From NCBI GenBank assembly GCA_944327105.1, contig CALVGN010000013.1, positions 1 through 41,612 on the forward strand: a stretch of DNA of 41,612 nucleotides, in the 5' to 3' direction. The notes beneath the pieces are model-generated. The model saw only the letters and a list, made by a program, of their open reading frames with translations, ran no database searches and had not been told where the DNA came from. The stretch is from an uncultured Erysipelotrichaceae bacterium (lineage in GTDB: Bacteria; Bacillota_I; Bacilli_A; Erysipelotrichales; Erysipelotrichaceae). Numbering within the stretch: the first letter of the stretch is position 1; each line of letters starts with the position of its first letter. Positions 179 to 41,612 of this stretch are shown here, one piece after another. The translations under genes and the position numbers were made by a program.

Positions 179-958
179 ATGGAACTGAGATGTCCGATAT
201 GTCAACAACCTTTATATACCGACCATGATCATGCATGGTGTGACCATGGACATCGTTTTGATCGTTCAAAACAAGGTTATTTCAATTTATTGAAGCATGG
301 CAAAAGATTTAGTGGGGATGACAAGGATTTGGTTGAAACCCGAATCCGTTTTCTTGATCACGGTTATTATGACTTTCTGATTGAAACCATCAATGTTTTG
401 GTCAAACCATATAGTTCAAATACCATTTTGGATATTGCCTGCGGACCAGGGTATTACCTTAAACGATTTGATGGTCGAAGCAAATACGGACTGGATCTTA
501 GCAAACCTGCCATCGCTTATGCTGCAAAACATGATCCAACCAGTCAATATCTGATCGCCAATGGATTTGATCTTCCATTTATGGATCGAACCATGGATCT
601 GGTCACGGTGATATTTGCACCCTATTCTTTGGATGAGATAACCCGTGTGCTAAAAACAAACGGGATATTTATCCGTGTATCTCCCGCCCCGATGCATCTA
701 TTTGAGATCAAGCAATTGCTTTACCCAACGGTATATGTCAATCACTATAAACCCATTGATCATTCCCATTTGACATTGGTCAAAACCATGATGATCGCTG
801 ATCGGAGTTTGATGGATGGTCCAACCATGGAAAACTGTTTTGCCATGACCCCCTATCGATATAAAACCGATCCAAACGCAATCAAGATATTGGCCAGTGC
901 ACATAAAAAAACAGTGACGATGGAATTTTATATCGATGTCATGATCAAAACCAAATGA
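179..958 (+). CDS. rlmA: 23S rRNA (guanine-N1)-methyltransferase RlmA
   Basis: The product is 259 residues, the normal size for the RlmA family, which methylates N1 of a guanine in helix 35 of 23S rRNA using SAM. The N-terminus has the family's zinc-binding module: C5, C8, C21 and H25, within CPIC and then C-x3-GHRFD. It is followed by the family's KQGYFNLL stretch. The SAM-binding motif I is ILDIACGPGYY near residue 84, with the acidic GLDLS at the end of the next strand. The gene stands alone and appears to be read from a leaderless transcript. Members of this family can affect sensitivity to some ribosome-targeting antibiotics, but the subtype (G745 or G748) cannot be settled by eye. Confidence 0.88.
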   Translation: MELRCPICQQPLYTDHDHAWCDHGHRFDRSKQGYFNLLKHGKRFSGDDKDLVETRIRFLDHGYYDFLIETINVLVKPYSSNTILDIACGPGYYLKRFDGRSKYGLDLSKPAIAYAAKHDPTSQYLIANGFDLPFMDRTMDLVTVIFAPYSLDEITRVLKTNGIFIRVSPAPMHLFEIKQLLYPTVYVNHYKPIDHSHLTLVKTMMIADRSLMDGPTMENCFAMTPYRYKTDPNAIKILASAHKKTVTMEFYIDVMIKTK

Positions 959-1046
959 TCCTTTGGTTTACACCATCGCTTTTGATGGTACGACCAAAAA
1001 TGAAATATGGGTAGAAACCATTGAAATCATGTGTTTTCATCTGGAT

Positions 1047-1083
1047 TTTACATGGTCTTTTCATACCGTGTATAATTAACGCC
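1047..1083 (+). promoter_or_regulatory. Promoter of recU-ponA, leaderless GTG start
   Basis: TTTACA (1047-1052) and a perfect TATAAT (1071-1076) are 18 bases apart. After TATAAT come seven bases and then GTG at 1084, which is where the RecU homology begins. The predicted transcription start therefore falls on the start codon, and there is no ribosome-binding site. This is the clearest leaderless promoter in the window because both boxes and the protein alignment agree. Confidence 0.7.
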
Positions 1084-1677
1084 GTGAAGGAAGTTTTAAA
1101 GTATCCGGATGGACAACGATTTGATCAAAAATCCCCTGCTTTAAATGGTCATGCCAATAAAGGCATGGATCTGGAACAGATGATCATCACATCGCTGAAT
1201 GAAGGATATCAAAACGATCAATGCTGGATCGTCAAATATCCCACACCCGTTACAGTGGTCAAAACCATGACACGTCATGGTGTGGTCCATATTACGGATG
1301 GTTTCTTCACCACCCCTTCCTGTTGTGATTTTATCGGTGTATGTGCGGGTAAAGCCATTGCGTTGGAAGCGAAAAGCACAATAAAAAAACGGTTTGCGTA
1401 TTCATTGATCCAACCCCATCAGCTATCCCACTTGAAAGATATGATCGCCCATCAGGGAAAAAGCTATGTGGTCATCGAAATGAAAGCTTATGGGGAAATA
1501 TTTTTAGTGGATGGCGGATATATCATCCAATCCATTGAATCGAATCATAAATCCATGAGCATTGACGAATTGAGAATCCATGGTAAAACCATTCAAACCG
1601 ATAACCCCTACCACCCTTTGAAACTATCTGAAACACTGTACAATGAGGTAAAAAACGATGCACATCGAAACCAATAA
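1084..1677 (+). CDS. recU: Holliday junction resolvase RecU
   Basis: RecU cleaves Holliday junctions during recombination and chromosome segregation in Bacillota. From GTG at 1084 the product is 197 residues (B. subtilis RecU is about 206). It begins KEVLKYPDGQRFD, like the family's 'YPNGK' start. The nuclease core is visible as CCDFIGVCAGKAIALEAKST, supplying the D and the E-x-K catalytic residues, then QPHQLSHL and a C-terminal strand. The reading frame is open back to 1021, but the upstream part precedes the -10 box and has no family similarity, so GTG is preferred. It overlaps ponA by 20 bases, and the recU-ponA pairing is conserved in Bacillota. Confidence 0.9.
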   Translation: MKEVLKYPDGQRFDQKSPALNGHANKGMDLEQMIITSLNEGYQNDQCWIVKYPTPVTVVKTMTRHGVVHITDGFFTTPSCCDFIGVCAGKAIALEAKSTIKKRFAYSLIQPHQLSHLKDMIAHQGKSYVVIEMKAYGEIFLVDGGYIIQSIESNHKSMSIDELRIHGKTIQTDNPYHPLKLSETLYNEVKNDAHRNQ

Positions 1678-4468
1678 AAAACATGGTCCAACCACTGACC
1701 ACACTGGTCGAACCAGAAGACCTAAACCCAAACGCAAGATCAACAAGAAAAACCTGGCTGCATTGATCATCTCCGTGATGCTGGTCTGTTTTGTGATCGG
1801 ATGCATCGGTGCACTCATTTTCGTTGCTAAAGTCAATTCCGATGCCCCTGATCTGGTGATCACCGACTTTGTCAGTGAACAAAGCAGCCAGATCATGGAC
1901 AAAAATGGCAATCTGATCGCGGATGTGGGTTCACAGATCCGCACCAATGTGGATTACGACCAAATGCCGACGGCATTTGTCGATGCATTCGTGGCCGTTG
2001 AAGATTCCCGTTTCTTTGACCACAATGGATTTGATTTGTCCCGTTTTGCAAAAGCCATGCTGGAAAATATCAAATCATTATCCTTTGCTCAGGGTGGTTC
2101 CACCTTGACCATGCAATTGATCAAACAGACCTATTTCATGGATGATGAAACCGGCATGCAAGCCGCGCGCAGCGGCATGGGCGGGATCGAACGAAAAATG
2201 GCGGAGATCCTGTTGGCCCCACAATTGAGTGGACTGGCAGATAAACAAACCGTGTTTGAGTTATATGTCAATAAAATCAACTATGGTGGTTCATACAATA
2301 ACCGGGGTGCCCAACAGGCCGCGTTATATTATTTCAATAAAGATCTCAACCAACTGAATTTGAGTGAATGTGCGTTGTTAGCTGGCGTAGTCAATGCACC
2401 CAATGCCTACAACCCATTCAATAACCTGGAAGCAGCGACCGAACGGCGCAATACCGTGTTATATCAGTTATACAACCATGGTTATATCTCCAAAATGGAA
2501 TATGAACTGGCCAGATCGATCAAGATCGAAGATCAGCTGGTGGATCCGGATGATCCACAGCGTAAAAGTGGTGGGACCACTTATGCCTATCAGGCATATA
2601 TCGATGAAGTGATCAACGAAGCACAACAATTGACCGGACGTGATCCAACCACCACTGCCATGAAGATCTACACGGCCATGGATCCTACGGTTCAGGGATT
2701 CATGGATGATCTACAGGCTGGCAATATTTTGGAATTCCCGGATGAATTGATGGAGATCGGTGTAGTTTCCATGAACAATTCCACTGGTGAGATCATCGCC
2801 ATCGCCGGTGGACGAAACTATGCCAGCGGTGGTTCACTATTGCTCAACCATGCCACAGATCAATACAAACAACCGGGTTCCAGTATCAAAACCATCCTCT
2901 CCTATCCCCTGGCATTTGAAAATTTAGGATGGGCCACCAGTCATGTGGTGGTGGATCGACCATTGGTCTATGCGGGAACTGACTTTGTCATCACCAATGC
3001 CAACAATACTTATGCCGGAGAGATCCGTTTGGTGGATGCGATCGGCCATTCCTTGAATACGCCGGCCATCGCCACCTTGCAGGAATTGGTCGATACCATG
3101 GGACGCGGTGCCATTGTGGATTATCTACAATCCCTTGGATTCAGTCAGGTCAATGATGATAATTTCGATATCCAGTTTGCCATTGGTGGTTCAAATTTAG
3201 CGGTATCGGTGGAAGAGATGGCCGGCGCGCATTCGATGATCTTGAACAATGGTCAATACATTACCCCTCATACCATCACCAAAATCGAATTCATGGACAG
3301 TGATGAAGTGGTCGAACCACAATATGAAGCCACACAGATCATTTCCCCTGAAGCGGCATATTTAACGGCACGCATGGAATACCAGGCCATCTATGGACCG
3401 TATGCCAACTATATGCAGGTCGCTCGCAAAAACTATCAAAGCTTCGGCAAGACCGGTACCACCGACTGGGGCGATTCCGGTCTGGAATACAATATCCCGC
3501 TGGGTGCGGTCAAAGACCGTTGGATGGCGATGAGCACCACCGACTTTACCAACGTCGTATGGCTGGGTTACGAAAAAGCGGTCAAAGATCAGGGAACCTA
3601 TTTTACCAGCGCTAAAAGTGCATTGAATATCACAGGGAATACCATGAGTAAATTGCTCGATGTATTGGAAAGCGTCTACGGTACCCCGGCCGATCTGGAA
3701 AAACCGGAAAATGTGGTCAACATCACTCACATCCTGGGAACCTGGCCTTATGCCTCCCCGATCGCGGAAATGGATCCGACGTATATCACTACTGGTGAAA
3801 TCAAAAAAGACAGTTACAAATTAGTCGATCCAATGACCCAGGAATTGGCGGAATTAAGTGAATTCAGCAGTGAAATCGACAATAATCTGCATTATAAATT
3901 CCACTTCGCCCCCTATCCGGATGAAAGCAAGCTGACCGTTGCCGATAGTACGATGGACATTTCATTAAGCAGCGGCTCCACATATGTGGAAGCCTGGGGC
4001 AATCGGTTGTTTGATTATTCATGGATATTTGGTCCGGTGCGCTACAAAGTATTCATCAAACAAGGTGATTCGATCGTGCAGGAGATCATTACCGATCAGG
4101 CAGACAGTGAAGGCGATTTGAGTGTGCCTGCGGGTACCTATGATGTCTGTGGCATGTATACGTTTGAAAACTTAGGAACGACCAGCAATCAGATCTGTCA
4201 AACATTCACATATACACAAGTAGTGGAAGAAGAGGAAGAAGAAGAACCGACACCGACGCCAACAGCTACACCGACGCCGACACCGGAATCCACGCCCACA
4301 CCGACACCAACACCCACTGCTACTCCAACACCGACACCAACACCAACGCCCAGTGAATCCACTGGTGAGACCACGCAACCTGGTGAATCCGGTGAGATCG
4401 GAAATGGTGCAACCACCGATCAAAGTGGACAAACCAACCCAAATGCCAATCCACAAACTGGGGATTAA
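1658..4468 (+). CDS. ponA: Class A penicillin-binding protein (PBP1-type)
   Basis: This bifunctional 936-residue enzyme polymerises glycan strands and cross-links peptidoglycan outside the membrane. A basic cytoplasmic tail is followed by one membrane anchor at about 33-57. The GT51 domain has EDSRFF (E115) and GGSTLTMQLIKQ (146-157). The transpeptidase domain has the three penicillin-binding motifs: SSIK (408-411), SLN (465-467) and KTG (598-600). A C-terminal extension follows, ending in an acidic run, a long Pro-Thr repeat and a hydrophilic tail whose last residues are NPQTGD. GAGG upstream of 1658 serves as the ribosome-binding site inside recU. It is co-transcribed with recU and ends at the hairpin at 4498-4521. 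Confidence 0.93.
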   Translation: MHIETNKKHGPTTDHTGRTRRPKPKRKINKKNLAALIISVMLVCFVIGCIGALIFVAKVNSDAPDLVITDFVSEQSSQIMDKNGNLIADVGSQIRTNVDYDQMPTAFVDAFVAVEDSRFFDHNGFDLSRFAKAMLENIKSLSFAQGGSTLTMQLIKQTYFMDDETGMQAARSGMGGIERKMAEILLAPQLSGLADKQTVFELYVNKINYGGSYNNRGAQQAALYYFNKDLNQLNLSECALLAGVVNAPNAYNPFNNLEAATERRNTVLYQLYNHGYISKMEYELARSIKIEDQLVDPDDPQRKSGGTTYAYQAYIDEVINEAQQLTGRDPTTTAMKIYTAMDPTVQGFMDDLQAGNILEFPDELMEIGVVSMNNSTGEIIAIAGGRNYASGGSLLLNHATDQYKQPGSSIKTILSYPLAFENLGWATSHVVVDRPLVYAGTDFVITNANNTYAGEIRLVDAIGHSLNTPAIATLQELVDTMGRGAIVDYLQSLGFSQVNDDNFDIQFAIGGSNLAVSVEEMAGAHSMILNNGQYITPHTITKIEFMDSDEVVEPQYEATQIISPEAAYLTARMEYQAIYGPYANYMQVARKNYQSFGKTGTTDWGDSGLEYNIPLGAVKDRWMAMSTTDFTNVVWLGYEKAVKDQGTYFTSAKSALNITGNTMSKLLDVLESVYGTPADLEKPENVVNITHILGTWPYASPIAEMDPTYITTGEIKKDSYKLVDPMTQELAELSEFSSEIDNNLHYKFHFAPYPDESKLTVADSTMDISLSSGSTYVEAWGNRLFDYSWIFGPVRYKVFIKQGDSIVQEIITDQADSEGDLSVPAGTYDVCGMYTFENLGTTSNQICQTFTYTQVVEEEEEEEPTPTPTATPTPTPESTPTPTPTPTATPTPTPTPTPSESTGETTQPGESGEIGNGATTDQSGQTNPNANPQTGD
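4243..4351 (+). repeat. Low-complexity Thr-Pro coding repeat in ponA
   Basis: Degenerate tandem copies of ACACCG/ACACCA-type units encode a Pro-Thr tail that follows an acidic run of seven Glu. Such tails often span or bind the cell wall. The repeat is prone to length change, and it produces long spurious antisense reading frames. Confidence 0.8.
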
Positions 4469-4497
4469 CCCACTGCATTCAATAATGAACTATCTTC

Positions 4498-4521
4498 AAA
4501 AGCGACCGTATGGTCGCTTTT
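4498..4521 (+). terminator. Intrinsic terminator after ponA
   Basis: AAAAGCGACC (4498-4507) pairs with GGTCGCTTTT (4512-4521) around a four-base loop. The right arm supplies the T-run, and the structure lies 30 bases after the ponA stop codon. Confidence 0.8.
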
Positions 4522-4580
4522 GTTATGGTTGAAACCATGTTTCATCCGAATGCATATCCCATCCTCATCGTGACCAATGA

Positions 4581-4597
4581 TGGTAAAATAATGTTGT
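4581..4597 (+). promoter_or_regulatory. Extended -10 promoter of the TPR gene, apparently leaderless
   Basis: TGG-TAAAAT puts an extended -10 at 4581-4589, eight bases before ATG 4598. No ribosome-binding site lies between them, and no clear -35 is visible. Confidence 0.5.
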
Positions 4598-5720: not shown

Positions 5721-5781
5721 TGCTTCATTTACGTTCAAAATTCAAATGAAAATCCCCTCGTATGGCTCGGATCAAGTACTC

Positions 5782-8246: not shown

Positions 8247-8380
8247 ACGATGTTTCCTTTCATATTTTAATTCTGGTCTTACCATGATATTCATTGGTCA
8301 GACCACATGGATTTACCATAATATCCCATATCCCAACGGTTGTCAGTTTATCAAATATATGATACCGTAATCACGTTCCT

Positions 8381-8893: not shown

Positions 8894-8918
8894 TGATGCA
8901 ACCATTGATGATCTGGAT

Positions 8919-10700: not shown

Positions 10701-11472
10701 AAGCCTCACTTTCTTTTTGAACGGTTAAAAATCCTTTGGTTAGATCACGTTTGGATAATGCGATCAAACAAGAAGAATCATAATCTCTTCCTGGATCACA
10801 TTTATCCGCAATATAAATGATCCGTGCCAGTGGTGAAACCACATGACCGGTGGTGTGATTCGCAATGGCATTAACGATTTGACGATCGGTAATACCAAGA
10901 AAGGTTTGAATAAAGATTGCTCCCGCATATTGATGCCAGATGGGTTTGGGTTGATATAAACAGGATGGATCATACTGTTGCGTCAATGATTGAAGTCGAT
11001 CATCATCCATGTTTTTGGCGATATCATGCAATAATGCGGTTTGTTTGGTTTTGACCACATCCACACTATGACTCTTGGCCAAATCAACGGCCAGTGATGC
11101 CACTCGATAAGTATGGGCATAGCGGGATGGTTTGAGATAATGCTTGAGCATTTGATCATAATAAACCATGGATCGATTGAGATATCGGATATACCACATG
11201 GGCAAACCATGATAATCCCCATTCCGGATGGTTTCCATAGCTTGGATCAATGACGCATCATCTTCGATGGTCAAACCAATGGATGAAGGGGTCTGACCAT
11301 AATGCACATAACTTAATCCCTTCAACCAGCTTTGATTCAATCGATCGATGATCGGATGCAATGGTTGGGTCGCAACCACATAAATATCTTGGTGGTATGT
11401 ATGGTGTAAACCATGGATGATATCCAAATGATTTTTAGTCAATGGATCACATAAAGAACGAAATAAGATCAT
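10663..11472 (-). CDS. yqeK: YqeK-type HD hydrolase with a degenerate, shortened NadD domain
   Basis: The C-terminal part, from about residue 112, is a complete YqeK domain, the family shown to hydrolyse diadenosine tetraphosphate: RYAHTYRVASLA (first His), ALLHDIAKNM (HD), an HTTG element and IIYIADKCDP (distal Asp). The first 110 residues resemble the start of nicotinate-nucleotide adenylyltransferase NadD, but are about half its length. The GG-x-F-DP-x-H-x-GH signature has become RSLCDPLTKNH, and the downstream ISST-x-IR motif is not seen. NadD-YqeK gene adjacency or fusion is known in Bacillota and Mollicutes; here the NadD half looks catalytically dead. Its start overlaps the yqeI stop (ATGA). 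Confidence 0.82.
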   Translation of the reverse strand: MILFRSLCDPLTKNHLDIIHGLHHTYHQDIYVVATQPLHPIIDRLNQSWLKGLSYVHYGQTPSSIGLTIEDDASLIQAMETIRNGDYHGLPMWYIRYLNRSMVYYDQMLKHYLKPSRYAHTYRVASLAVDLAKSHSVDVVKTKQTALLHDIAKNMDDDRLQSLTQQYDPSCLYQPKPIWHQYAGAIFIQTFLGITDRQIVNAIANHTTGHVVSPLARIIYIADKCDPGRDYDSSCLIALSKRDLTKGFLTVQKESEAYVAGQHDQSTNP

Positions 11473-11756
11473 GGCAAAATGATTTTGGGCTCCTTGGCTT
11501 TTTTATACAAGACATAGGTTTTACCGATGGTTTGGACCAATTCAGCTTTGGTAAAAGCCAATGTATCCAATATCAGTTCATTCAATGGGATATCACAACT
11601 TTTCAATACATGGATCTTCACCAATTCTCTCGCAATCAATGCTTGATCGATGGAGACCAGTGTGTTTTTATCCAAACCATTCTTGCCGATCTGGAAAATG
11701 GCATTTTCTCGATTAGCAAGGGATCGTAAATAACGTTTTTGTTTTCCGTTTAACAT
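11469..11756 (-). CDS. yqeI: RNA-binding protein YqeI (CRS1/YhbY domain)
   Basis: YhbY/CRM-domain proteins bind pre-50S ribosomal particles. From ATG 11756 (MLNGKQKRYLRSLA) the product is 95 residues, the family length. It has the diagnostic KNGL (IFQIGKNGLD) and the ELVKIHVLKSC strand, then AELVQTIGKTYVLYKKAKE. The long upstream extension of this frame lies in yqeH and has no family similarity. AGAGG lies 11 bases before the ATG, and the gap from yqeH is two bases. In B. subtilis aroE lies between yqeH and yqeI; it is absent here. Confidence 0.9.
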   Translation of the reverse strand: MLNGKQKRYLRSLANRENAIFQIGKNGLDKNTLVSIDQALIARELVKIHVLKSCDIPLNELILDTLAFTKAELVQTIGKTYVLYKKAKEPKIILP

Positions 11757-11758
11757 GG

Positions 11759-22450: not shown

Positions 22451-24199
22451 TCATTGCAATGCGTCAATCAGATTTGCAACGGTGGCATTGAGTTGAAGCC
22501 GTTCAAATGGGGAGGCAAATGTGGCATATTGGTTGGAATCAATGGAGAAACGAGGATAAACCCATGTTTGTAGTTTTGAAAGGATGGATGAATCACCTTG
22601 TTGTTTCAGACATTCGATTCTATGGATCATGGTCAGACCATAGCGGATCAATAATAATCGATACGAAGGGGTGATATATGGTTCGACCAATTCCTCCTTT
22701 GGATAAACCAGAAATGGATCTCCACTTTGGAAATCACCATAATCCGCATTGATCAATGGATCTTCGTTCCATCCATCATAACTCCATCTTAAAAAGCCGT
22801 TTGCGCCAAAGCGATAACTGTATAACAGAGAAAATAACGTATCTGCAGGATCAGAAGTAACGAAGGATGAGGGATATTGGCCAGTAGTGGTATAGATGGT
22901 GGTGGTTAGACCAACCGCATCCCGATGGCTACACAATGCTTCGAATGATTCGATATGATCGTCAATGGCAACCAGTGAAAAAGAAATATCATCGATTTGA
23001 TCGAGTAAATCCCATTGATCAATCAAATTTGAATTGATGGCAGCGGATATTTTAAAACTCTCTCCTTTTCCACTTTGGATCGAATGGATCAAATCGATGC
23101 AGGCTTGCAATGTGGTTGCATCCCGCTCATCCATGGCGATATAGATCAATCCTTCGATATTCAATGATTCACAATGAACCATGAAATCTTCCAAAAAAGT
23201 GGTCCAGTAATAGATCCAAGGCTGACTGCCCACTTCCAGCACTTCATCGATAGTGGTATGACTGGCTTCATCCAAATACGAGATCTGATTGTTCCACGGG
23301 GCAATGGAATACGCTTTGATCCCACTGTTGGGATTGGATGGATCCAATACATCACTGGTCAAACCAAGGGATATCCATTGATCAAAATAAGTATAATCAA
23401 AACGAAATGACCCATCTTCCTGACGGATCCATTGGATCAAGGATGGATCGGAATCATAGGATTGATGGTTCCATACCTCATCAACAACTGTGGCTGTTAG
23501 CATATGTCCACCCATGGATGCATATTCGGTAAGCATGGATGATAAAATCATTTGATGCTCAATTCCAAAAGTTTCAAGATCATAATACCGAGCACTGGTA
23601 AAGGGATGTTGCCATAATTCGATGGTAAAACCATCTTCTAAACGGATATTGACGGGATTGATCTGTATCGCTAATGCTTTGGGCTTTTCAAACTGATCTG
23701 CATCGATCTTGATGGTCAAATCAAAAGAGTCCATCGGCATCTGATATGTGGTTTCAACCACCAGCACATATTGACAGATACCGTTATGCTCCACAGATCT
23801 ATCTACGGTATCGTTCATGACATCCAAATAGGGATACGATGGTCCATCCTTCAAGGGTGAAGCCATGGTTGGATCCATTTGGTAAATGGTATAACCATCC
23901 ATCCATTGTTCCAATGGTAAATCACTTTCTAGATCGATCGATAGATTGGTTAAGGATGTTTGATGTGTTTCAATGGCAAAACGGATCAGTGCATAATCAT
24001 TGCCATACAGTTGGAGCACCATCGTTTCAAAACCATTGAGGTCCTTTGCTTTGTCATCTTTGATGGATTCAAGGATATCGACAAAATAAACGTCGGTTTC
24101 TTCTGTTTTGACACACCCATAACAAAAAACAAGCAACAGACTTAATATCAATTGGATACTTGGTTCGACCAAGGATAACGATGCAAAAAATCGTTTCAT
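22451..24199 (-). CDS. GH123/DUF4091-like surface lipoprotein glycosidase
   Basis: The 582-residue protein has a hydrophobic leader ending CYGC at residue 29, an imperfect lipobox, so it is probably anchored outside the cell. The fold resembles DUF4091/GH123 (N-acetyl-beta-galactosaminidase family): a beta-rich N-terminal half, then a TIM-barrel part with an Asp-Glu pair in YIAMDERD (357-358), where GH123 has its catalytic pair, and near the C-terminus GANGFLRWSYDGW (465-477) and GDPFLVYP (493-500), typical DUF4091 motifs. Substrates of the family are GalNAc-containing glycans; the actual specificity is unknown. It follows the ECF S gene by six bases with no ribosome-binding site. Confidence 0.72.
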   Translation of the reverse strand: MKRFFASLSLVEPSIQLILSLLLVFCYGCVKTEETDVYFVDILESIKDDKAKDLNGFETMVLQLYGNDYALIRFAIETHQTSLTNLSIDLESDLPLEQWMDGYTIYQMDPTMASPLKDGPSYPYLDVMNDTVDRSVEHNGICQYVLVVETTYQMPMDSFDLTIKIDADQFEKPKALAIQINPVNIRLEDGFTIELWQHPFTSARYYDLETFGIEHQMILSSMLTEYASMGGHMLTATVVDEVWNHQSYDSDPSLIQWIRQEDGSFRFDYTYFDQWISLGLTSDVLDPSNPNSGIKAYSIAPWNNQISYLDEASHTTIDEVLEVGSQPWIYYWTTFLEDFMVHCESLNIEGLIYIAMDERDATTLQACIDLIHSIQSGKGESFKISAAINSNLIDQWDLLDQIDDISFSLVAIDDHIESFEALCSHRDAVGLTTTIYTTTGQYPSSFVTSDPADTLFSLLYSYRFGANGFLRWSYDGWNEDPLINADYGDFQSGDPFLVYPKEELVEPYITPSYRLLLIRYGLTMIHRIECLKQQGDSSILSKLQTWVYPRFSIDSNQYATFASPFERLQLNATVANLIDALQ

Positions 24200-33419: not shown

Positions 33420-34482
33420 GGCTGACCTCCTTTCCGTACAGTTTATTCATGCGCGCATGCAGATTCTGAATACCGATTGGTGGCTCAACTTTCGGTGCCC
33501 GTGGATCCAATAACCATGTTTTGGCCCAATGGGTATCCGTGACATTGAAAATCGGGGGTTCTTCTTCGAAATCGATTTGCATCGCATAGGGATTTCTTAC
33601 GGCAAACGCATCGCCTTTGACTTCTTCGAACAAGGATGGCGGTGTACCGGCAATGGCAAATAATTCATGGCCTTTTTCACCCAATTGCGGCAAGGAATTC
33701 AACAAGCCCCAGGTATAAGGATGTTTGGGTTCATAGAATACTTCTTCGACTTTGCCGTATTCGATGATCTGGCCGGCATACATGACGGCCACATCATCGG
33801 CGACATTGGCCACAACGCCCAAATCGTGGGTAATGTAAATCGTGGTGAAACCATAATCTTTTGACAAGTCTTTGATCAATTGAATGATCTGAGCCTGAAT
33901 GGTGACATCCAATGCAGTGGTGGGTTCATCGCAAATCAAGATCTTTGGATGACAAGCCAAGGCAATGGCGATAACGATACGTTGCCGCATTCCGCCGGAA
34001 TACATGAATGGATATTCATCATACCGTTTTTCCGGATCAGGAATACCAACACGTCCCATCAATTCGATCGCTTCTTTTTTGGCTTCCGCTTTGGATTTAC
34101 CTTCATGTTTGATGATGACTTCACTGATCTGATAACCAATGGTGCGAACTGGATCCAAAGAACTCATGGGATCCTGAAACACAGTGGCAATTTTTTTACC
34201 ACGGATGTCTGCCCAATCCTTATCTGTCTTGAATTTGCCCAGGTCTTGTCCTTCAAACCAGATTTCACCCTGTGGGATCGATCCATTGATTTCCAGCATA
34301 CCAGTAAATGTTTTGGTAAAAACACTTTTCCCGGAACCGGATTCGCCAACGATTGCGACCGTCCGACCTTCTTCAAAATCCAGTGAGATATTGCGGATCG
34401 CCGTCAAAACTCGATCACGGACTTTAAATTTAACGACCAGGTTTTTAACCGAAAGCAACGGTGTTTTGTTCGTATTCTCCAT
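33412..34482 (-). CDS. oppD: Oligopeptide ABC transporter ATPase OppD
   Basis: The 356-residue partner ATPase has Walker [10 protein letters not shown], signature [15 protein letters not shown], Walker [14 protein letters not shown]-loop ITHDLG, and the OppD C-terminal [16 protein letters not shown]. OppD and OppF form the heterodimeric motor for OppB and OppC. AGGAGG precedes its ATG, directly after oppC. Confidence 0.94.
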
Positions 34483-34505
34483 AATTTATCCAAAACCTCC
34501 TTTGC

Positions 34506-35426
34506 TTAGTTCATATGCGTCTTCGGATCCGACGCATCGGCTAAAGTTTGACCGACAATATAGAATGAAACGGAAATCGCCGCCGCGACGATCAATGGCA
34601 ACCAGAACATATACGGCGCACTGAGCATGTAGGGTGAATACGTCTGGATCATCTGACCCAATGAAGCGACGTCTTTGCCCAAACCAACTCCAAGATAACT
34701 TAAGAATACTTCATACGAAATGTAACTTGGAATGTCACGCGCAACACTGGTCACGATGACGGAAACCAAATACGGTAGGATGTTATGGGTAACGATCTTG
34801 CTGACCGGTGTTCCCAGACAACGTGAAGCCAAGTTATATTCACGATCTCGAATGATCATGACTTGAACACGAATGAAATACGCCACAGAAATCCAGGATG
34901 TGACACTCATGGCAAAGATCAATTGCCAAATGCCACCACCCAGTGCATAAACCAGCACCATGACGATCAGTGTAAATGGTACATTGGCGACTACATTGTA
35001 GACTTCGATCATAAACACGTCGATTTTTTTGGAATATCCCCAAAACATACCGACGATCACACCGATCACAGTGGAAATGAGTGTGGCCATTGCAGCGATA
35101 AACAAGGAATTGCGCGTTCCCGCCCATACGGCATCAAACAGATTCTTACCGACATTGTCCGTACCAAATGGGAATTCCAAACACGGCCAGATGTAATGCA
35201 TGGAACGATCGTTGATAAATCCCGGATCACGTGGGTCGTAACCACTGATCATGGGATGCACGATCGACATAATGACGATAAATAGCACGATCAATAGCAT
35301 CACGATCGCCACTTTGCTGGAAAAGAACTGTCTGAAAACACTCTTCCAGTAGCTGTATTGCGGAGCCGCGATATGCTCACTGGCATCCTCTTTCATTTGG
35401 ACGAAAGTAAATTTATTTTCACTCAT
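34506..35426 (-). CDS. oppC: Oligopeptide ABC transporter permease OppC
   Basis: The 306-residue permease has a cytoplasmic N-terminal tail, one anchor (VAIVMLLIVLFIVIMSIV) and then five segments with the importer EAA-like loop (YNLASRCLGTPVSKIVTHNILPYLV). The N-terminal OppC motif GTDNVGKNLFDAVWAGTRNSL is present. It overlaps the oppB stop by four bases. Confidence 0.94.
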   Translation of the reverse strand: MSENKFTFVQMKEDASEHIAAPQYSYWKSVFRQFFSSKVAIVMLLIVLFIVIMSIVHPMISGYDPRDPGFINDRSMHYIWPCLEFPFGTDNVGKNLFDAVWAGTRNSLFIAAMATLISTVIGVIVGMFWGYSKKIDVFMIEVYNVVANVPFTLIVMVLVYALGGGIWQLIFAMSVTSWISVAYFIRVQVMIIRDREYNLASRCLGTPVSKIVTHNILPYLVSVIVTSVARDIPSYISYEVFLSYLGVGLGKDVASLGQMIQTYSPYMLSAPYMFWLPLIVAAAISVSFYIVGQTLADASDPKTHMN

Positions 35427-36904
35427 CGTGTATCTCCTTTCGCCGTCAATTGAATACGCGGATCGATAACCGTCATCAACAAGTCACCAACCAAAACAGC
35501 CAGGATCGATAATGACGCAAAAATGAATGTCAAGGTGATCACCATATTGTTATTAACCACCTTAATGGCATCCGGAAGCATTTTGCCCATACCTGGGATA
35601 GAGAAAATACTTTCGGTGATCACTGATCCGCTCAGACAGGCAACCACTGAACTAGGGATGCCGTTGACAATCGGAATGATCGCATTTTTCAAAATATGAC
35701 GATTGAAAATTTCAGACTGACTCAAACCTTTTGCTTTGGCAAATTTGACATAGTCTGCATTGGTCTGATCGACCATGTATCGTCTTACCCAGGTCATCAA
35801 GGAAGCAGTATTGAGCAACGCCAAGATGATGATGGGCAAAACGTAAGAGCGAATATCTCCAAAACCGTACTGAGGGAATTTATCCGGTGCTCCGAAGAAG
35901 TTACCAATCTGTTTGACCAGGAAAATGAACGCCAAAGATGGTAATGCAATAAGGAAATTAATATAGACAATACCGATTTTATCGACCAGTTTGCCTTTTT
36001 TTCGTGCCATCTGAATGCCGGCTGGAATAGCAATCAGATATGCAATGATCAACGACATCAAACCAAACATCAATGATGTGGATGCCATGGACGGATCCTT
36101 ATAATTCAATGCACAATCGGCATAATTGGTATCGAATTTGGTCGTATCCAGATGATCTAGCGTACTGGTCATCTTATATTTGCAGGCATTCAGATTCACA
36201 CTGGACGGTTGGGTCACACCGGTTGGGAATGTTGTATCGGCCTGTTGTGGTGTTCCCTGTCCTTGCATGATTACGGTCATGGTTGGAACACCCTGATTGG
36301 TCGGGAACGAATTTCCAAAATTCAGTTCAACGACATTTTGATGGATAAACGGGAATGATCCGTCAATATAAATCTGAGTTTCTGCAAGACAGCCGCTACA
36401 TTTGATCGCCGGCAATCCTTCATATGTAGTCGATAAATAGTATTTGCGCTCTAAATCCGGATTATTCGGATCCTGGATATACCATGGATTATCAACGCGG
36501 ATAAATGTGGTCAAAAAATTCCATACCAGCTCTACCATCGTATAATCACGGCTCGCAAAGGGCATGCCGCTTTCTAGATACTGGATCGTATATCCATCGG
36601 CAGCGTACTGATCCACAACACGCTGCTGTTCATCACTGCCGACTGTCAGACACGCTGTCGTGTCTTCACTGCCAGCATTGGTGCACATGTCACTCATTGT
36701 CTGATAATCCAGATATCCCAATTCTTCCCAACGGGTATACGTGTATGCCGTTTTGGCATCACCTTGCATTTTTTTATACCCTGCATCCTGGTCGAAGATC
36801 TTGGTCCGTGACACCATCTTAAATAAAAGCAGCATCACGATCATTACGACCAGAAGAATAGAAATAACGGATTTCAGAAGTCGAGTCAGCACGTATTTCT
36901 TCAT
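35423..36904 (-). CDS. oppB: Oligopeptide ABC transporter permease OppB with an enlarged extracytoplasmic domain
   Basis: The C-terminal half is a standard OppB permease core, with the EAA-like loop YVKFAKAKGLSQSEIFNRHILKNAIIP and the SGSVITESIFSIPGMG motif. At 493 residues it is well beyond the roughly 300-320 usual for OppB: between the first membrane segment (about 11-30) and the core lies a polar domain of some 240 residues. It contains several cysteines (MCTNAG, TACLTV, KCSGC, NACKYK, ADCALN), which could form disulfides outside the cell. AGGAAG precedes the ATG. It follows oppA after a large intercistronic hairpin. Confidence 0.9.
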   Translation of the reverse strand: MKKYVLTRLLKSVISILLVVMIVMLLLFKMVSRTKIFDQDAGYKKMQGDAKTAYTYTRWEELGYLDYQTMSDMCTNAGSEDTTACLTVGSDEQQRVVDQYAADGYTIQYLESGMPFASRDYTMVELVWNFLTTFIRVDNPWYIQDPNNPDLERKYYLSTTYEGLPAIKCSGCLAETQIYIDGSFPFIHQNVVELNFGNSFPTNQGVPTMTVIMQGQGTPQQADTTFPTGVTQPSSVNLNACKYKMTSTLDHLDTTKFDTNYADCALNYKDPSMASTSLMFGLMSLIIAYLIAIPAGIQMARKKGKLVDKIGIVYINFLIALPSLAFIFLVKQIGNFFGAPDKFPQYGFGDIRSYVLPIIILALLNTASLMTWVRRYMVDQTNADYVKFAKAKGLSQSEIFNRHILKNAIIPIVNGIPSSVVACLSGSVITESIFSIPGMGKMLPDAIKVVNNNMVITLTFIFASLSILAVLVGDLLMTVIDPRIQLTAKGDTR

Positions 36905-36929
36905 GTATCTCTTCCTTCCTTATGACAAT

Positions 36930-36969
36930 AATTAGGTTGTAAACCTTTCGCAAAGCTTACAACCTAATT
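36930..36969 (-). other. Intercistronic hairpin between oppA and oppB
   Basis: AATTAGGTTGTAA (36930-36942) pairs perfectly with TTACAACCTAATT (36957-36969), and CTTT/AAAG can add a small inner stem. On the minus strand the 3' side is followed by ATTGTC, not a T-run, so it may limit read-through or protect oppA mRNA. Such elements commonly make binding protein more abundant than permease. Confidence 0.65.
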
Positions 36970-37003
36970 CGATTATTATCGGAATTTGCGTTCAGCTAAC
37001 GGT

Positions 37004-39055
37004 TTATTCACCCTTAACTTCGGCACGGCGTGCTTCGTAATCAGCAGCAGTGATAATACCATCGCTGACTAACTGCAGACCTTTCCACTTGTATTCACCG
37101 ATACCAGTCTGTCCATCCTGTTTGGTGAACGGGATGAAGCGACGCACCCATTGAGTACGGGTCTGCTGATATGACGGGATATACAGTGCATGAGCAACTA
37201 AGTATGCATCGGCTTGAGCAAATGCTTCATAACGTGCATCCATATCATCCGTGATCGCATCCGCTGTACGGTAGAGTTCTTCATATTCATAGAAGCCCAA
37301 TTCTTCCTTAACCGCAGCATCCGGATCTTCATCCTGATCAGCCGGTACGAAACCGAAGCTATTCATCAGATAACCGGTCGTCGGGGAAACGATATCAACG
37401 AAGGATTTCGGATCCGCATAGTCCGGAGACCAGCCTGCGAATGTATTGATATCGTAATCGCTGGCTTCAGGTCCTGCTTGGTTGTAGCAGGTTGCATTGA
37501 TTTCATCTTCATTCAACATGACGACATTAATGAGAATGTTGCCTTCAGTGTTGGCTTCGACAGACTGTTTGAGACTGTTCGCCTGGTTGACCAAACGCTG
37601 ATTGCTTTCCAAGGTCGGCATATCCAATGTAACCGGGAATACAACACCATCCGCTTCAGCCGCTTCGATATAGCTCATTGCTTCTTCAGCGGAGAAGAAT
37701 GCATCCTGACCATCAGCCAAAGAACGGGTGTCACCAGTCATTTCAGCATAGGCTTCTTCGACCAACGTACCATAGCTCTTACCGTCACCGGTATGAACCA
37801 CTTCAGGATAGTTGTTGATATTACGCAGTGTTTCTTCTGCAACATCCAATGGTGCAGACACAGCTAAATAACTTGTCTTATCGAATGCAGCACGCAATGC
37901 TTTACGGAAGTTTTCATTGCGAATCGCAGCCTGTGTATTCGCTTTATCTTCATCGGTTGTGTGAGCGCTGTACTCATAGCTTAAACGGTTGAAGTTCAGC
38001 TGAATACCAAACACGGAAGCGTTCGGTTCGCTGGCAACGATAAATCCGGCATACTTGTCAGCATAAGACTGATAATCAGCCCAACTGGTTTCCAGATAAG
38101 CGGCAGGATAAGTACCAGCTTCAAATGCATTGATCTTACTATATGGATCACTGCCATCATCAAAGATCTGAGTGATGGTTTCCAGATAAACATGATCAGC
38201 ATCCCAATAAGATGGGTTTTTGGTCATGACAATGCTGGACTTGAAGTCGTAGCTTTGCAGGATATAGGCACCATTGTAAAGAATGGAGTCTGGTTGACCG
38301 GCAGCACCGAAGGTGCATTCTTCGATCACCGGATTACCCAATGCACAACCAGTACCTCTGGATTCCAAGAATGTCTTGTTCACCGGATAAAGTATAGTGT
38401 AGTTCGCCATGGTTTCGAAATACGGTGTACTGGATTCCAATGTGTATTCCAGTGTCAAATCATCGATTGCCTTGACACCGACTTCTTCAAATCCAACCAA
38501 GCCATCGGTATATTCTTTATAGTTTTTGATGACGCCTTCGAGCAACCATCCGGTACCACTATTGAAATCAGCAGCATGTTGCATACCGGTAACCCAGTCC
38601 TGAGCAGTCACCTGTTCATAGACTTCACCGGTATTGGTGACCCAATAAACATCCGGACGGATGTGGAAAGTCCATACTGTTGCATCTTCATTGTGATCCC
38701 AACTTTCAGCCAAAGACGGCACGATGTTTCCAGCAGCATCGTTTTCCACCAGACCATCAACAAAGTTGACATTCTGACAGTGATCTTCAGCCAATGCAGA
38801 AGTGACGTAGTCCATTGTTGCGACGTCAGTCGTGTAATAGTACGTCATCTCGGTCGGACCGGTGTAATCAGCAACACTGGTTGCAATGGTATACGTCGCT
38901 GCGGTACCGCCGCTACCCAAGGCAGTTGTGCCTTCGGTGCTCGGGGTGTCCGTTCCGGTCGCTGCCGTGGTAGACGGCGTTGTCGTGTTTCCAGAACATG
39001 CAGCCAGGGATACCAGCATCAGTCCAGCCAAAGAGCTTGAAACTAATTTCTTCAT
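37004..39055 (-). CDS. oppA: Oligopeptide-binding lipoprotein OppA
   Basis: From ATG 39055 the protein is 683 residues. AGGGAGGG lies upstream; the frame is open to 39124 but lacks a site. The signal peptide ends with lipobox SLAAC, then comes a Thr/Ser-rich linker. The SBP_bac_5 domain shows ESWDHNEDATVWTFHIRPDVYW and the later AFDKTSYLAV and GWSPDYADPKSFVDI elements of peptide-binding proteins. It is the first opp gene and probably the most highly expressed. Confidence 0.93.
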   Translation of the reverse strand: MKKLVSSSLAGLMLVSLAACSGNTTTPSTTAATGTDTPSTEGTTALGSGGTAATYTIATSVADYTGPTEMTYYYTTDVATMDYVTSALAEDHCQNVNFVDGLVENDAAGNIVPSLAESWDHNEDATVWTFHIRPDVYWVTNTGEVYEQVTAQDWVTGMQHAADFNSGTGWLLEGVIKNYKEYTDGLVGFEEVGVKAIDDLTLEYTLESSTPYFETMANYTILYPVNKTFLESRGTGCALGNPVIEECTFGAAGQPDSILYNGAYILQSYDFKSSIVMTKNPSYWDADHVYLETITQIFDDGSDPYSKINAFEAGTYPAAYLETSWADYQSYADKYAGFIVASEPNASVFGIQLNFNRLSYEYSAHTTDEDKANTQAAIRNENFRKALRAAFDKTSYLAVSAPLDVAEETLRNINNYPEVVHTGDGKSYGTLVEEAYAEMTGDTRSLADGQDAFFSAEEAMSYIEAAEADGVVFPVTLDMPTLESNQRLVNQANSLKQSVEANTEGNILINVVMLNEDEINATCYNQAGPEASDYDINTFAGWSPDYADPKSFVDIVSPTTGYLMNSFGFVPADQDEDPDAAVKEELGFYEYEELYRTADAITDDMDARYEAFAQADAYLVAHALYIPSYQQTRTQWVRRFIPFTKQDGQTGIGEYKWKGLQLVSDGIITAADYEARRAEVKGE

Positions 39056-39151
39056 AATTCCCTCCCTAGTTTCTGCAATCAAATTGCATGTGAACATTTT
39101 CGACCAATTGATAAGTGAATGCAATTAAAAAGAGTCACAAATTACCTTTTA

Positions 39152-39169
39152 TATGAAAATATTTTCATA
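39152..39169. promoter_or_regulatory. Perfect 18-base palindrome upstream of oppA
   Basis: TATGAAAATATTTTCATA is its own reverse complement and lies about 97 bases before the oppA start codon, in the only sizeable intergenic region of the operon. TATAAA partly overlaps it on the minus strand, but no -35 of good spacing is visible. An operator is plausible. The arms are in the opposite order to the CodY box (AATTTTC-N-GAAAATT). Confidence 0.45.
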
Positions 39170-39267
39170 AAGCATTTACAATTTCTTTTCCTGCTTGACA
39201 CTTCCACCGTAACGCAAACGTCATGTCATGTGGCTTGAACACAAGCTATCGTGGCTTTATTGCAGCA

Positions 39268-39300
39268 ATAAAAAAGTGCTGTCAAACAACAGACAGCACC
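39268..39300 (-). terminator. Terminator after the YhfC-like gene
   Basis: GTGCTGTC (39276-39283) pairs with GACAGCAC (39292-39299). On the minus strand the stem is followed by TTTTTTATTG. A second perfect inverted repeat, TTTATTGC/GCAATAAA, lies just beyond. Confidence 0.8.
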
Positions 39301-39314
39301 TTACATTGGCATAA

Positions 39315-40148
39315 TCAGTCAATGACATGGTCAAATGGAATATGCCATTGAGTAGCATTGGTCTTTTTCACCCATGTGATCAAACCAAGATCCACGACGA
39401 TCAAAACAGCATAAACCAACACCAACCCGGCAGTGGCAGAAATCCCCAAAGCCGTCAAAACATTGGTAGAATACAATCCAGCCATAAAATCCACCGCAAA
39501 ATGAGCGAGTATGGCCACACCAAATAATCCCCATGCTTTCGTGTAAACTGCAGTAAAGACGATCACACTGAGCACCACATGAAGCACAAAAGCCAAAATG
39601 CGTTCCAACAGTGAAAGGAAATACATCGATACCGGCGTGGCGGCCATTGCCGAAATGGATGCCATCAATTCCGGTGTCATTTCGGTCGTGCCCATGACAC
39701 TGGCTAAATCGTTATTGGCAATGGCTTGAAGGATCATGGCATTGGAAAACATGTTCAACGCCCCAATGATCAGCATCTCCATGCCACCATGGCCAAAACC
39801 ATACATCAATGCATCACTGATGGAATTGAACCGCTTGCCGATGCATTTGAAAATCAAAAAGCGGGTTCCTTCTTCGAAGATGGCTGCCATTAAGCCGCCA
39901 TAGGCGGCATAAAGCACACCATTAGACAAAATGGTCGAACCAATGGGTGAAGCAAGAATCAGAGAATGCGCAAAGCTTTCCACCACGAATACAGATAAAA
40001 AGAATGCACACAGACCGATGATGGCATTACCAATGAATCCGTGATATTTGAATTTGAAAAATGCAATGGATGCAATCGGAATCAACGCCATCAATGCCGC
40101 AACGACATATACGACATTGACAAGTGATGGTGAAATGGTGATATCCAT
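39315..40148 (-). CDS. YhfC-family intramembrane protein (putative metalloprotease-like)
   Basis: This 277-residue protein has about seven to eight hydrophobic segments. YhfC proteins are distantly related to CPBP/PrsW-type membrane proteases. The characteristic pieces are EEGTRFLIFKCIGKR, YGFGHGGMEMLIIGAL, ERILAFVLHVVLSVIVF and LAHFAVDF, whose Glu and His residues lie where a metal site would be. Activity is unproven for the family. AAGGAG lies eight bases before ATG 40148. It is probably monocistronic, downstream of the ABC-F terminator. Confidence 0.82.
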   Translation of the reverse strand: MDITISPSLVNVVYVVAALMALIPIASIAFFKFKYHGFIGNAIIGLCAFFLSVFVVESFAHSLILASPIGSTILSNGVLYAAYGGLMAAIFEEGTRFLIFKCIGKRFNSISDALMYGFGHGGMEMLIIGALNMFSNAMILQAIANNDLASVMGTTEMTPELMASISAMAATPVSMYFLSLLERILAFVLHVVLSVIVFTAVYTKAWGLFGVAILAHFAVDFMAGLYSTNVLTALGISATAGLVLVYAVLIVVDLGLITWVKKTNATQWHIPFDHVID

Positions 40149-40162
40149 AAAAAATACTCCTT

Positions 40163-40195
40163 AAAAGTCCCGTTGATCGTTTAAGATCAACGGGA
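40163..40195 (-). terminator. Terminator after the ABC-F gene
   Basis: CCCGTTGATC (40169-40178) pairs perfectly with GATCAACGGG (40185-40194) around six bases, followed on the minus strand by a short TTTT. The ribosome-binding site of the YhfC-like gene begins immediately after. Confidence 0.65.
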
Positions 40196-40232
40196 TTCAT
40201 CTTAACACAAGATATTTTGATTGAAATATGGT

Positions 40233-41612
40233 TCAACCATTGAGTTCGTGGTTAGACCCTTCTTTTTGGACGTGTTCGATCAACTCACATTTACTTTGCC
40301 ATTGATCCATCAGATGCGCAATTTCATTATGTTTGTCATCGATGGTTTCATCCAATTGTGCCATTTTGGAAGAATCCTGATAGTATTCCGGTTCAAACCG
40401 TAATTCTCTCAATGCTTCCAGTTCCCCTTCTTTTTCATCGATCAATGCTTCCAGTTTTTTGATTTCCCGTTGGACATTGATCAAAATGATCCGTGGTTTG
40501 ACCACTTCTGCTTTGGAGGATTCCACCTTGACTGGATTTACTTTTTCTTTTTGACCCTTGTCTTTTTCACCAACATCGAATCGTTCAACGATTTCGACTT
40601 TACCATCTTTGATGGACGCGATATCCGTGGCGATCTTTTCGATAAAATAACGATCATGAGAAACAAATAAAATCGTCCCCTCATAATCCATCAACGCATC
40701 TTCCAGTGTTTCTTTGCCCAATATGTCCAGATGATTGGTTGGTTCATCCAAAACCAGAAAATTTGCTTTTTTCAGTAACAGTTTCGCCAGTGAAAGTCGT
40801 ACTTTTTCCCCACCCGAACATTGGTCGACTGTTTTGAATACTTCATCAGCAGTAAACAGAAAATGGCCTAACACCGTTCGGATTTCGGTTTGACCCATTT
40901 GCGGATAGTCGTCCCATAATTCATCCAATACCGTTTTTCCACTGTTTAATTGGGCCAGTTGCTGGTCAAAATAACCGATATCGATCTGATGACCAAGTAA
41001 AAAAGCACCGCTTAATGGTTGGACCATTCCCACCAGTGTTTTTAAAAAAGTGGATTTGCCGCATCCATTTTCACCAATAAGTGCGATCCGCTGGCCTTTA
41101 CGGATGTTGTAAGACCAACGGAACAAAGGATGGTCATAACCAACGGTCAATTCATCAAACTCCACCACACTCTTGCCTCCGCTTCGTGCGCATTCAAAAG
41201 AAGCGCTGAAGCTTTGGGTATCGGCTTTTTGCGGATCGTCGATCTTGTCCATGCGTTCCAGGTATTTGATCTTGGATTGGGCAAATGCGGCTTTGCTGGC
41301 TTTGTAACGGAATTTTTCGATCAACGCTTCCATACGCTGGATCTCTTTTTGCTGATTACGGTAGCGTTTGCTCTGCAGTTCGAAGTTTTTCTTTTTTTGT
41401 TCGACAAAGCTGGAATAGTTTCCTTTATACCCCGTCATATGGCCATATTCGATCTCATAGACCATATCGACGATGCGATCGAGAAACATGCGATCGTGAC
41501 TGACCAAAAGGATGGCTTTCTCATATTTTTTCAAATACTCTTCCAGCCATCGGATCGTCGGCAGATCCAGATGATTGGTCGGTTCATCCAGCATGAGCAT
41601 ATCGGGTTTGGT
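40233..41612 (-). CDS. ABC-F family ATPase, C-terminal part (truncated by window end)
   Basis: The gene enters from beyond 41612; 459 residues are visible. They begin in the Walker B of the first ATPase domain (LMLDEPTNHLD), followed by the ABC-F linker with charged helices (RYRNQQKEIQRMEALIEKFRYKASKAAFAQSKI). The second domain has Walker A GENGCGKST, signature QCSGGEKVRLSLAKLLL and LVLDEPTNHLDI. The C-terminus is a basic linker and a coiled coil. It has no membrane domain, so it acts on ribosomes. The layout is YdiF/Uup-like; a housekeeping translation factor is likelier than antibiotic protection. The stop lies inside a TGGTTCAACCA palindrome. Confidence 0.9.
   Translation of the reverse strand, partial: TKPDMLMLDEPTNHLDLPTIRWLEEYLKKYEKAILLVSHDRMFLDRIVDMVYEIEYGHMTGYKGNYSSFVEQKKKNFELQSKRYRNQQKEIQRMEALIEKFRYKASKAAFAQSKIKYLERMDKIDDPQKADTQSFSASFECARSGGKSVVEFDELTVGYDHPLFRWSYNIRKGQRIALIGENGCGKSTFLKTLVGMVQPLSGAFLLGHQIDIGYFDQQLAQLNSGKTVLDELWDDYPQMGQTEIRTVLGHFLFTADEVFKTVDQCSGGEKVRLSLAKLLLKKANFLVLDEPTNHLDILGKETLEDALMDYEGTILFVSHDRYFIEKIATDIASIKDGKVEIVERFDVGEKDKGQKEKVNPVKVESSKAEVVKPRIILINVQREIKKLEALIDEKEGELEALRELRFEPEYYQDSSKMAQLDETIDDKHNEIAHLMDQWQSKCELIEHVQKEGSNHELNG

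Follow-up and report, generated by a model that had tools for sequence, protein, structure and literature searches.

The window, which denotes the whole stretch of DNA analysed here, comprises 41,612 nucleotides of contig CALVGN010000013.1 from an uncultured Erysipelotrichaceae bacterium (assembly GCA_944327105.1) and is densely covered with the interrupted palindrome TGGT-N3-ACCA. The element extends over the whole genome, where 2182 copies were counted compared to 93 of the reversed control pattern. Moreover, neighbouring sites are positioned 21 bp apart, a new observation that was made in two independent samples. As a single site, TGGTNNNACCA is a recognised operator type of the FadR-subfamily GntR regulators, according to excerpts of PMC4494728 and PMC7660256. 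We give slightly better than even chances to the reading that such a FadR-type GntR operator was amplified genome-wide and is read by the GntR protein encoded on contig C27 of the same genome, which would act as a chromosome-wide binder; the reading derives from sequence comparisons.

Abundance, form and placement of the palindrome

A pattern count yielded exactly 57 copies of TGGT-N3-ACCA in the window, the first at position 236 and the last at 41016-41026, in agreement with the initial annotation of this DNA. The expectation of 0.6 copies given there (about 90-fold enrichment) was too low. The frequencies of the two tetramers lead to 3.3 and a scaled order-3 Markov model to 3.0 expected copies; the enrichment is thus about 19-fold, which is still overwhelming. 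With respect to the other spacings, N4 occurs 26 times, N2 once, N5 twice and N6 nine times, and the reversed pattern ACCA-N3-TGGT was found twice. The earlier statement that N4 is over-represented and that N2 and N5 are nearly absent therefore holds. For the complete genome (1,614,838 bases counted in 59 contigs), the density is 1.35 perfect N3 copies per kb, which is similar to that of HIP1 of cyanobacteria and bears out the proposal of a genome-wide element.

Sequence was read for about 43% of the genome. Sample A (359 kb) consisted of the window and 20 genome stretches, and sample B was a hold-out of 260 kb from the same genome. For a set of 597 kb, two stretches were dropped, one of which reads N while the other is an alien stretch. 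In sample A, TGGT was by far the strongest inverted-repeat arm among the 256 tetramers at spacers of 0-20, with 487 N3 and 202 N4 copies compared to 27.5 expected for each (17.7-fold for N3) and a small excess at N6 (46 copies). In the 597-kb set, 796 N3 and 353 N4 copies compare with 43.7 and 44.5 expected from an order-3 Markov model, which rules out order-3 composition as the cause. N1, N2, N5 and N8 were below expectation in this set (29, 18, 25 and 25 copies) and N6 reached 63. N4 is the sole other strongly enriched spacing, and N2 is without enrichment. TGGT-N3-ACCA also ranked first among all gapped pairs of 4-mers with gaps of 0-25 (797 vs. 43.4 expected in the sampled genome). All 39 readable stretches contain the element, 38 of them at 0.69-2.4 N3 copies per kb and the alien stretch at 0.05; a local or assembly artefact is therefore unlikely.

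Mismatches are tolerated, as seen for TGGT-N3-ATCA (212 vs. 56). An A precedes TGGT in 58% of the flanks, as determined from 487 copies with the two strands taken together, in line with the extension to ATGGT...ACCAT noted earlier, and the 15-bp example CTTGGTTCGACCAAG is present. The centre is YNR in 58% of the N3 copies of the genome and in 145 of the 189 copies outside predicted genes. A C/C centre is rare (26 of 796 N3 copies in the 597-kb set). Outside genes it occurs in 9 of 189 copies (12.7 expected), inside genes in 17 of 607 (51.9 expected), which shows that its apparent avoidance is mostly a coding effect.

These counts bear on the explanation that the palindromes act as self-complementary RNA or DNA hairpins, or that a replication or repair bias perfects quasi-palindromes. 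Loops of 3-4 favour hairpins, and a few long doublets resemble terminators. Furthermore, arms other than TGGT also yield somewhat more inverted repeats than expected (2013 vs. 1860 for N3; about 1970-2500 for N4 to N20), and inverted repeats taken together mildly exceed expectation at most spacings, part of this being due to frames that overlap the TGGT element. Single arms show a modest excess, for example TTGA-N0-TCAA with 79 vs. 30 in sample A. However, no other arm comes near TGGT with its 17.7-fold enrichment at N3, and only the spacings 3, 4 and, weakly, 6 exceed expectation. In addition, the sites are phased at 21 bp, and only one N3 copy is found in a 25-kb stretch of an otherwise dense contig (see below). 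Because of the specificity for TGGT and the phasing, hairpins and the repair of quasi-palindromes were rejected, and we assign hardly any probability to them. In view of the same two observations, the RNA hairpin suggested in the initial annotation is not supported.

The copies are found both in and between genes. In sample A, the N3 density is 1.55 per kb outside and 1.27 per kb inside predicted genes, whose borders are rough since they were predicted with a simple custom script. Shuffling of synonymous codons in 285 predicted genes (40 shuffles) led to 55.9 ± 6.1 expected N3 copies compared to 363 seen, and to 38.1 ± 5.2 expected N4 copies compared to 165 seen. Codon or amino-acid usage is thereby ruled out as the cause, as had been claimed. 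The element survives both checks, the counts being far above the order-3 Markov and the codon-aware model. It had also been stated that the copies fall in different reading frames. They are indeed mixed, but unevenly so: GGT and ACC are in codon frame in 264 of 349 coding N3 copies of the first gene set. The positions of the copies along genes are even, and the spacing between copies is more uneven than random (coefficient of variation 1.35).

The order of amino acids appears to be bent by the DNA element. In the predicted proteins of sample A, G-x-T outnumbers T-x-G 1.6-fold (622 vs. 379), and W-[FSYCL]-[YHND]-[HQ] occurs 21 times compared to 0 for its reversal. The frequencies of V-x-P, G-x-S, A-x-T and V-x-A are near those of their reversals.

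Where predicted genes are separated by gaps of 15-800 bp, the joint density of N3 and N4 copies in these gaps depends on the orientation of the flanking genes. Divergent gaps show the highest value with 4.76 per kb, followed by same-direction gaps with 3.47 and convergent gaps with 2.17, compared to 1.87 in genes (p = 0.005 for divergent vs. convergent; p = 0.08 for same-direction vs. convergent). The divergent gaps hold 46 copies and 91 TGGT tetramers in total. This tilt to promoter-bearing gaps fits a reader that descended from a transcription factor. At two other positions of the genome (L034:15029 and L251:4345), perfect N3 copies occur twice at a distance of 14 bp and together make up a longer palindrome, which is followed on the gene strand by six and four T, respectively, at the ends of the BacA/uppP and dxs genes. 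There, the element seems to serve as a terminator stem.

Pairing of neighbouring sites and operators of FadR-type regulators

In sample A, two TGGT tetramers on the same strand are separated by 21 bp in 106 cases, compared to 28 expected. The distance from ACCA to the next TGGT is 14 bp in 116 cases (27.5 expected) and 13 bp in 66. The hold-out sample B reproduced the phasing with 65 and 62 cases at a TGGT/ACCA expectation of 16. A partner with at least six of eight matches was detected at 21 bp in 86 of the 1592 flanks of perfect N3 sites. For comparison, a distance of 18 bp gave 14 such partners and one of 24 bp gave 22, and the maximum over the other distances from 8 to 70 bp was 29 (at 63 bp). 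Since partners are few at 18 and 24 bp, codon periodicity does not account for the peak at 21 bp. N3 and N4 are mixed in 18 of the 34 pairs spaced 20-22.5 bp; one reader therefore seems to use both spacers. Patterns of three motifs were absent from the sampled genome. A distance of 21 bp corresponds to two helical turns. The phasing thus argues for protein dimers that lie side by side on double-stranded DNA, rather than for hairpins, a mutation bias or a methylase site, and it lends support to the earlier suggestion of a site for a nucleoid-type protein that may bind as a flexible dimer.

HIP1 of cyanobacteria is GCGATCGC, a highly iterated contiguous 8-mer. The present element is likewise a short, lineage-restricted palindrome that is iterated over coding and non-coding DNA, and its genome-wide over-representation in both is extreme. 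By analogy, a DNA methyltransferase or methyl-directed repair might make and maintain the palindrome; such a role would agree with the density and the spread of the copies, and Elhai 2015 connects highly iterated palindromes with methyltransferases (excerpts of PMC4390886). In contrast to the contiguous 8-mer tied to methyltransferases in these excerpts, the element described here is interrupted, degenerate, phased and operator-like, and it has two spacers instead of one contiguous, fixed palindrome of the methyltransferase type. Two spacers, tolerated mismatches and phasing at 21 bp are unlike the known reading of DNA by methylases, and we regard this origin as quite improbable. The DNA modification site considered in the initial annotation is not supported on the same grounds, namely two spacers, degenerate positions and helical phasing.

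The boxes of the FadR subfamily are given as TKGT/ACMA, mostly 3 nt apart, in the excerpts of PMC4494728, where the reported spacings are 3 or 2 nt for this subfamily and 4 nt for HutC. For PdhR of E. coli K-12, the excerpts of PMC7660256 give AATTGGTnnnACCAATT as the box and state that genomic SELEX (gSELEX) detected 35 sites in the genome. TKGT/ACMA boxes 3 nt apart are found in the element as well. With the operators of FadR, PdhR and LldR it shares the TGGT half-site, the 3-nt spacer, the Y-N-R centre, the dyad and the 21-bp tandems at a regulator gene. In contrast, these regulators have few sites (the 35 of PdhR in PMC7660256), whereas the present genome contains 2182 perfect copies that are mostly intragenic, plus the N4 form. 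The earlier remark that the element had not been described therefore requires a distinction. Its single site is a known FadR operator according to the excerpts of PMC4494728 and PMC7660256; for the genome-wide iteration of a GntR-type site, no description was found in the open-access papers searched, the subscription literature not having been searched.

GTDB genomes were scanned with the DNA pattern TGGTYNRACCA-N10-TGGTNNNACCA, which contains no protein information, and at least 102 loci were obtained. Open reading frames (ORFs) of at least 300 bases were considered, and GntR ORFs were called by means of a custom profile (E ≤ 1e-4). Among the matches listed, GntR ORFs accounted for 46 of the 498 ORFs located up to 300 bp from the first pair; the ratio was 1 of 647 for those at 300-1500 bp and 3 of 1595 for those still farther away. 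A GntR gene was thus located within 300 bp of the pair in 46 of the 102 listed loci; the 56 listed loci that lack such a gene include tandem repeats inside genes. Ten of the 46 GntR proteins were examined, covering different groups; an FCD domain is present in each of them and FadR_C additionally in one. Both sites have a YNR centre in 41 of 47 GntR-adjacent pairs compared to 40 of 65 others, the pattern itself fixing one site as YNR. The 21-bp tandem of TGGT-N3-ACCA is, judged by these gene neighbourhoods, a recurrent putative operator arrangement at FadR-type genes. The GntR-adjacent loci (80 titles of 102) presumably belong to Actinomycetota, Pseudomonadota, Desulfobacterota, Myxococcota, Verrucomicrobiota and Bacillota. 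None of 78 viral contigs with a 21-bp pair contained a GntR ORF.

A candidate reader on contig C27

According to Pfam, the genome encodes five GntR proteins: two with a UTRA domain, two short ones without a second domain, and one of the FadR type. The gene of the latter (G000:C27, open frame 11336-12157, plus strand) lies between rbfA and two tyrosine-recombinase genes. Its product matches GntR with an E-value of 3.7e-12 and FCD with 7.2e-6, the latter score of 26.9 bits being slightly over the cut-off of 24.3, and has weak relatives in the PDB that include Rv0494 and FadR. Two perfect sites, TGGTCTGACCA and TGGTCAGACCA, are located at positions 11371 and 11384 of stretch L250. They precede an in-frame ATG at 11405, which we infer to be the start of the GntR protein. 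This shorter version agrees better with the length of a homologue from the relative G020. The homologue is 29% identical, and its gene carries TGGTCTGACCA 15 bases before the start, while the whole G020 genome contains only 18 copies. Such a site in so copy-poor a genome suggests that the line of the C27 protein binds the motif. A site is thus present at a FadR-type gene, but this involves few copies, and nearly all others lie elsewhere.

If the FadR-type operator was indeed amplified, each palindrome TGGT-YNR-ACCA, with 4 as a second allowed spacer, would take up one winged-helix dimer of an FCD-type GntR protein. A second dimer would find room on the same helix face at a distance of 21 bp, and neighbours would aid each other. 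The site would have been multiplied across genes and gaps by point mutation and selection, which would be weak per site but general and would have shifted codons and some residues. The reader would no longer be a local repressor but a chromosome-wide protein similar to nucleoid proteins, with extra sites near promoters; the high density of the element on the chromosome is as expected for nucleoid-protein sites. The C27 gene would probably be self-repressed via its doublet: protein in excess of the capacity of the genomic sites would shut the gene off. In this context, we infer that the C27 protein binds the element, that it occupies most sites and that it serves chromosome organisation.

Several observations weigh against this assignment. 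The C27 protein reaches no NCBIfam cut-off, and its best weak match is MocR-type, followed by NanR, LldR and FadR. Its recognition helix, VSKTIVHDGL, is without the R and RE that are usual in VSRxxVREAL. The reading frame stays open upstream through the doublet, and no sigma-70-type promoter was found in L250 11200-11500. Since the start is a prediction and a promoter match is missing, our confidence in the assignment is slightly lowered. If the opposite strand is considered, the C27 doublet is scored as a terminator-like hairpin, and the genome has two similar doublets at other positions that resemble terminators. The two sites of the C27 doublet have GGTC/GGTC halves (C-N-G centres CTG and CAG; L250:11371-11394), a minority form in the genome, and the sites are spaced by 13 bp, not 21. 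One of the short GntR proteins (L237) also has TGGTCAGACCA (1385-1395), 83 bp before its start, and this site has a C-N-G centre of the minority form as well. Partners at 21 bp are a minority (an excess of about 4% per flank), and most sites are without one. The N4 form is enriched and paired with N3 at 21 bp, which departs from the 3 or 2 nt of FadR operators; as 4 nt is the HutC spacing, N4 is unusual for a single FadR-type dimer. In spite of the tilt to promoter-bearing gaps, the majority of the copies lie inside genes. Finally, 52 of the 102 listed GTDB loci are without a GntR ORF, and many of the 46 GntR loci stem from one genus, Microbacterium, and are not all independent.

The palindrome might also be a chromosome-wide site of another reader, either a different GntR protein or an unrelated one, with which the FadR-type protein only shares the operator type. 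The candidate's own sites, with their minority C/C form and 13-bp spacing, would be in agreement with this, as would the HutC-like N4 spacing, given that the genome encodes two UTRA-type (HutC-like) GntR proteins. Moreover, further candidates may be missed with about 43% of the genome read. However, it would then be a coincidence that the half-site, the spacer, the YNR centre and the pairing at 21 bp all agree with FadR-type tandem operators. In addition, the surroundings of one UTRA-type gene (L234) are free of copies, and those of the other (L235) contain a single N4 copy. We therefore consider another reader unlikely, albeit a serious alternative.

The features of the window are compiled in Table 1. 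The 6 kb at 33854-39931 are without any N3 or N4 copy and encode, at 37004-39124, an SBP_bac_5 solute-binding protein; this segment is possibly a later acquisition.

Table 1. Copies of the palindrome in the window and selected pairs
Feature	Position	Strand	Remark
TGGT-N3-ACCA, 57 copies	236..41026	.	11 bases each; exact count, 3.0-3.3 expected
Starts of N3 copies	236, 399, 817, 986, 1581, 1684, 1705, 2569, 3309, 4363, 4405, 8274, 8295, 8425, 9758, 10179, 10831, 11268, 11821, 11946, 12205, 12824, 13259, 16828, 17379, 17585, 17707, 18235, 18421, 19270, 19585, 20092, 20261, 20600, 21043, 22630, 22679, 22903, 23356, 23623, 23887, 24161, 26162, 26320, 28060, 28582, 29402, 29481, 30828, 31106, 33182, 33266, 33843, 39932, 40229, 40494, 41016		
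TGGT-N4-ACCA, 26 copies	777..41142	.	12 bases each; exact count
Starts of N4 copies	777, 964, 1256, 3087, 4526, 8974, 11046, 11402, 11528, 12393, 12517, 12979, 13394, 13603, 17199, 19488, 19768, 20323, 20856, 21148, 23749, 26107, 26679, 27516, 29638, 41131		
Extended 15-bp palindrome CTTGGTTCGACCAAG	24159..24173	.	exact match
N3 pair TGGTCCAACCA-N10-TGGTCGAACCA	1684..1715	.	centres 21 bp apart
N3 pair TGGTCTTACCA-N10-TGGTCAGACCA	8274..8305	.	centres 21 bp apart
Mixed pair, N4 (964-975) and N3 (986-996)	964..996	.	centres 21.5 bp apart

Occurrence in other genomes and in probably acquired DNA

No comparable element was found in 314 other genomes of the same order, where the highest N3 count was 115 (control 68). 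This set covers 79 genera including that of the window, which is represented by the window's genome only. Similarly, 343 further genomes of the class (G343-G685; the remaining 51 rows besides G000 are order members counted before) contained no comparable element, with a maximum of 148 N3 copies (control 106). In 25 genomes of other groups chosen from the GTDB scan, the maximum was 481 in 8.2 Mb (control 273). The element is thus shown to be confined to one genome or lineage among those searched. Also, 20 stretches from 20 relatives (one of which reads N and one of which has a masked run) contained no comparable iterated inverted repeat. The strongest signal there was CTGC-N1-GCAG with 15 copies vs. 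1.5 in 20 kb of relative G034 (L286, C8:1-20000), and a related genus may thus possess an iterated palindrome of its own.

Local accumulations of N3 copies were seen in other sources. A stretch of 8 kb from the Myxococcales metagenome-assembled genome RYN_368 (L078) contains eight N3 copies and two 21-bp pairs, one of them at a GntR gene; as this genome has 56 N3 copies overall, the stretch is a dense local cluster. Two IMG/VR contigs show an excess as well, with ten N3 copies in the 13.6 kb of L198 (1.7 expected) and nine in the 11.7 kb of L221 (1.5 expected). They are seemingly related, are in opposite orientation, and no GntR ORF was found in them. A viral search with the gyrase B protein yielded one distant locus, which was not used.

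Within the genome itself, the first 25 kb of contig C25 contain just a single copy of each form (N3 and N4), and their tetranucleotide profile is alien; beyond 25 kb, the copy density is as usual. Ten ORFs of the stretch L255 (G000:C25:1-20000) include genes of the defence type, namely SNF2 and other helicases, an MZB-domain protein, an OLD-family ATPase, two DNA methylases (C5 and N6/N4) and a WHH/colicin-type DNase domain. We read these 25 kb as acquired DNA at a contig end, a misjoined contig being an alternative. On the former reading, DNA that enters the genome lacks the element, which argues against a fast mutational process, and the single N3 copy in this stretch speaks against the mutational or repair bias that had been listed in the initial annotation, whose interpretation is, overall, partly supported.

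The alien stretch without the element would also be in accordance with a DNA uptake sequence, the copies of which mark self DNA for competence. Like uptake sequences, which occur in thousands of copies per genome, the element is abundant, and about 2000 copies correspond to the scale in Neisseria and Haemophilus. However, uptake sequences are not known to be dimer sites with dyad symmetry and a phasing of two turns. Dyad symmetry, a flexible spacer and this phasing suit the binding of dimers, and more copies in divergent than in convergent gaps would not be expected of an uptake signal. A function in uptake is therefore very improbable.

For an amplified operator read by a FadR-type protein, Crp-type global regulators with nucleoid-protein-like behaviour are a further parallel. 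As described in excerpts of PMC8546631, they suggest that a ligand-type factor may double as a chromosome-wide binder. What differs in the present case is that the sequence of the genome has been remodelled to carry a high-information palindrome more than once per kb. Only tentatively, and at rather less than even chances, do we propose that a metabolite-type repressor of the GntR/FadR kind became a sequence-specific chromatin protein, and that the genome, its codons and even its amino acids evolved to carry a phased operator more than once per kb.

To our knowledge, highly iterated palindromes such as HIP1 have neither an agreed function nor an obvious protein reader. In the present case, the sequence itself indicates a reader family and one candidate gene, so that the cause of the filling of a genome with palindromes becomes testable. 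If the proposal is true, a local repressor can become a chromosome-wide protein, and the genome would illustrate to what extent codon and amino-acid usage can be bent by a binding site.

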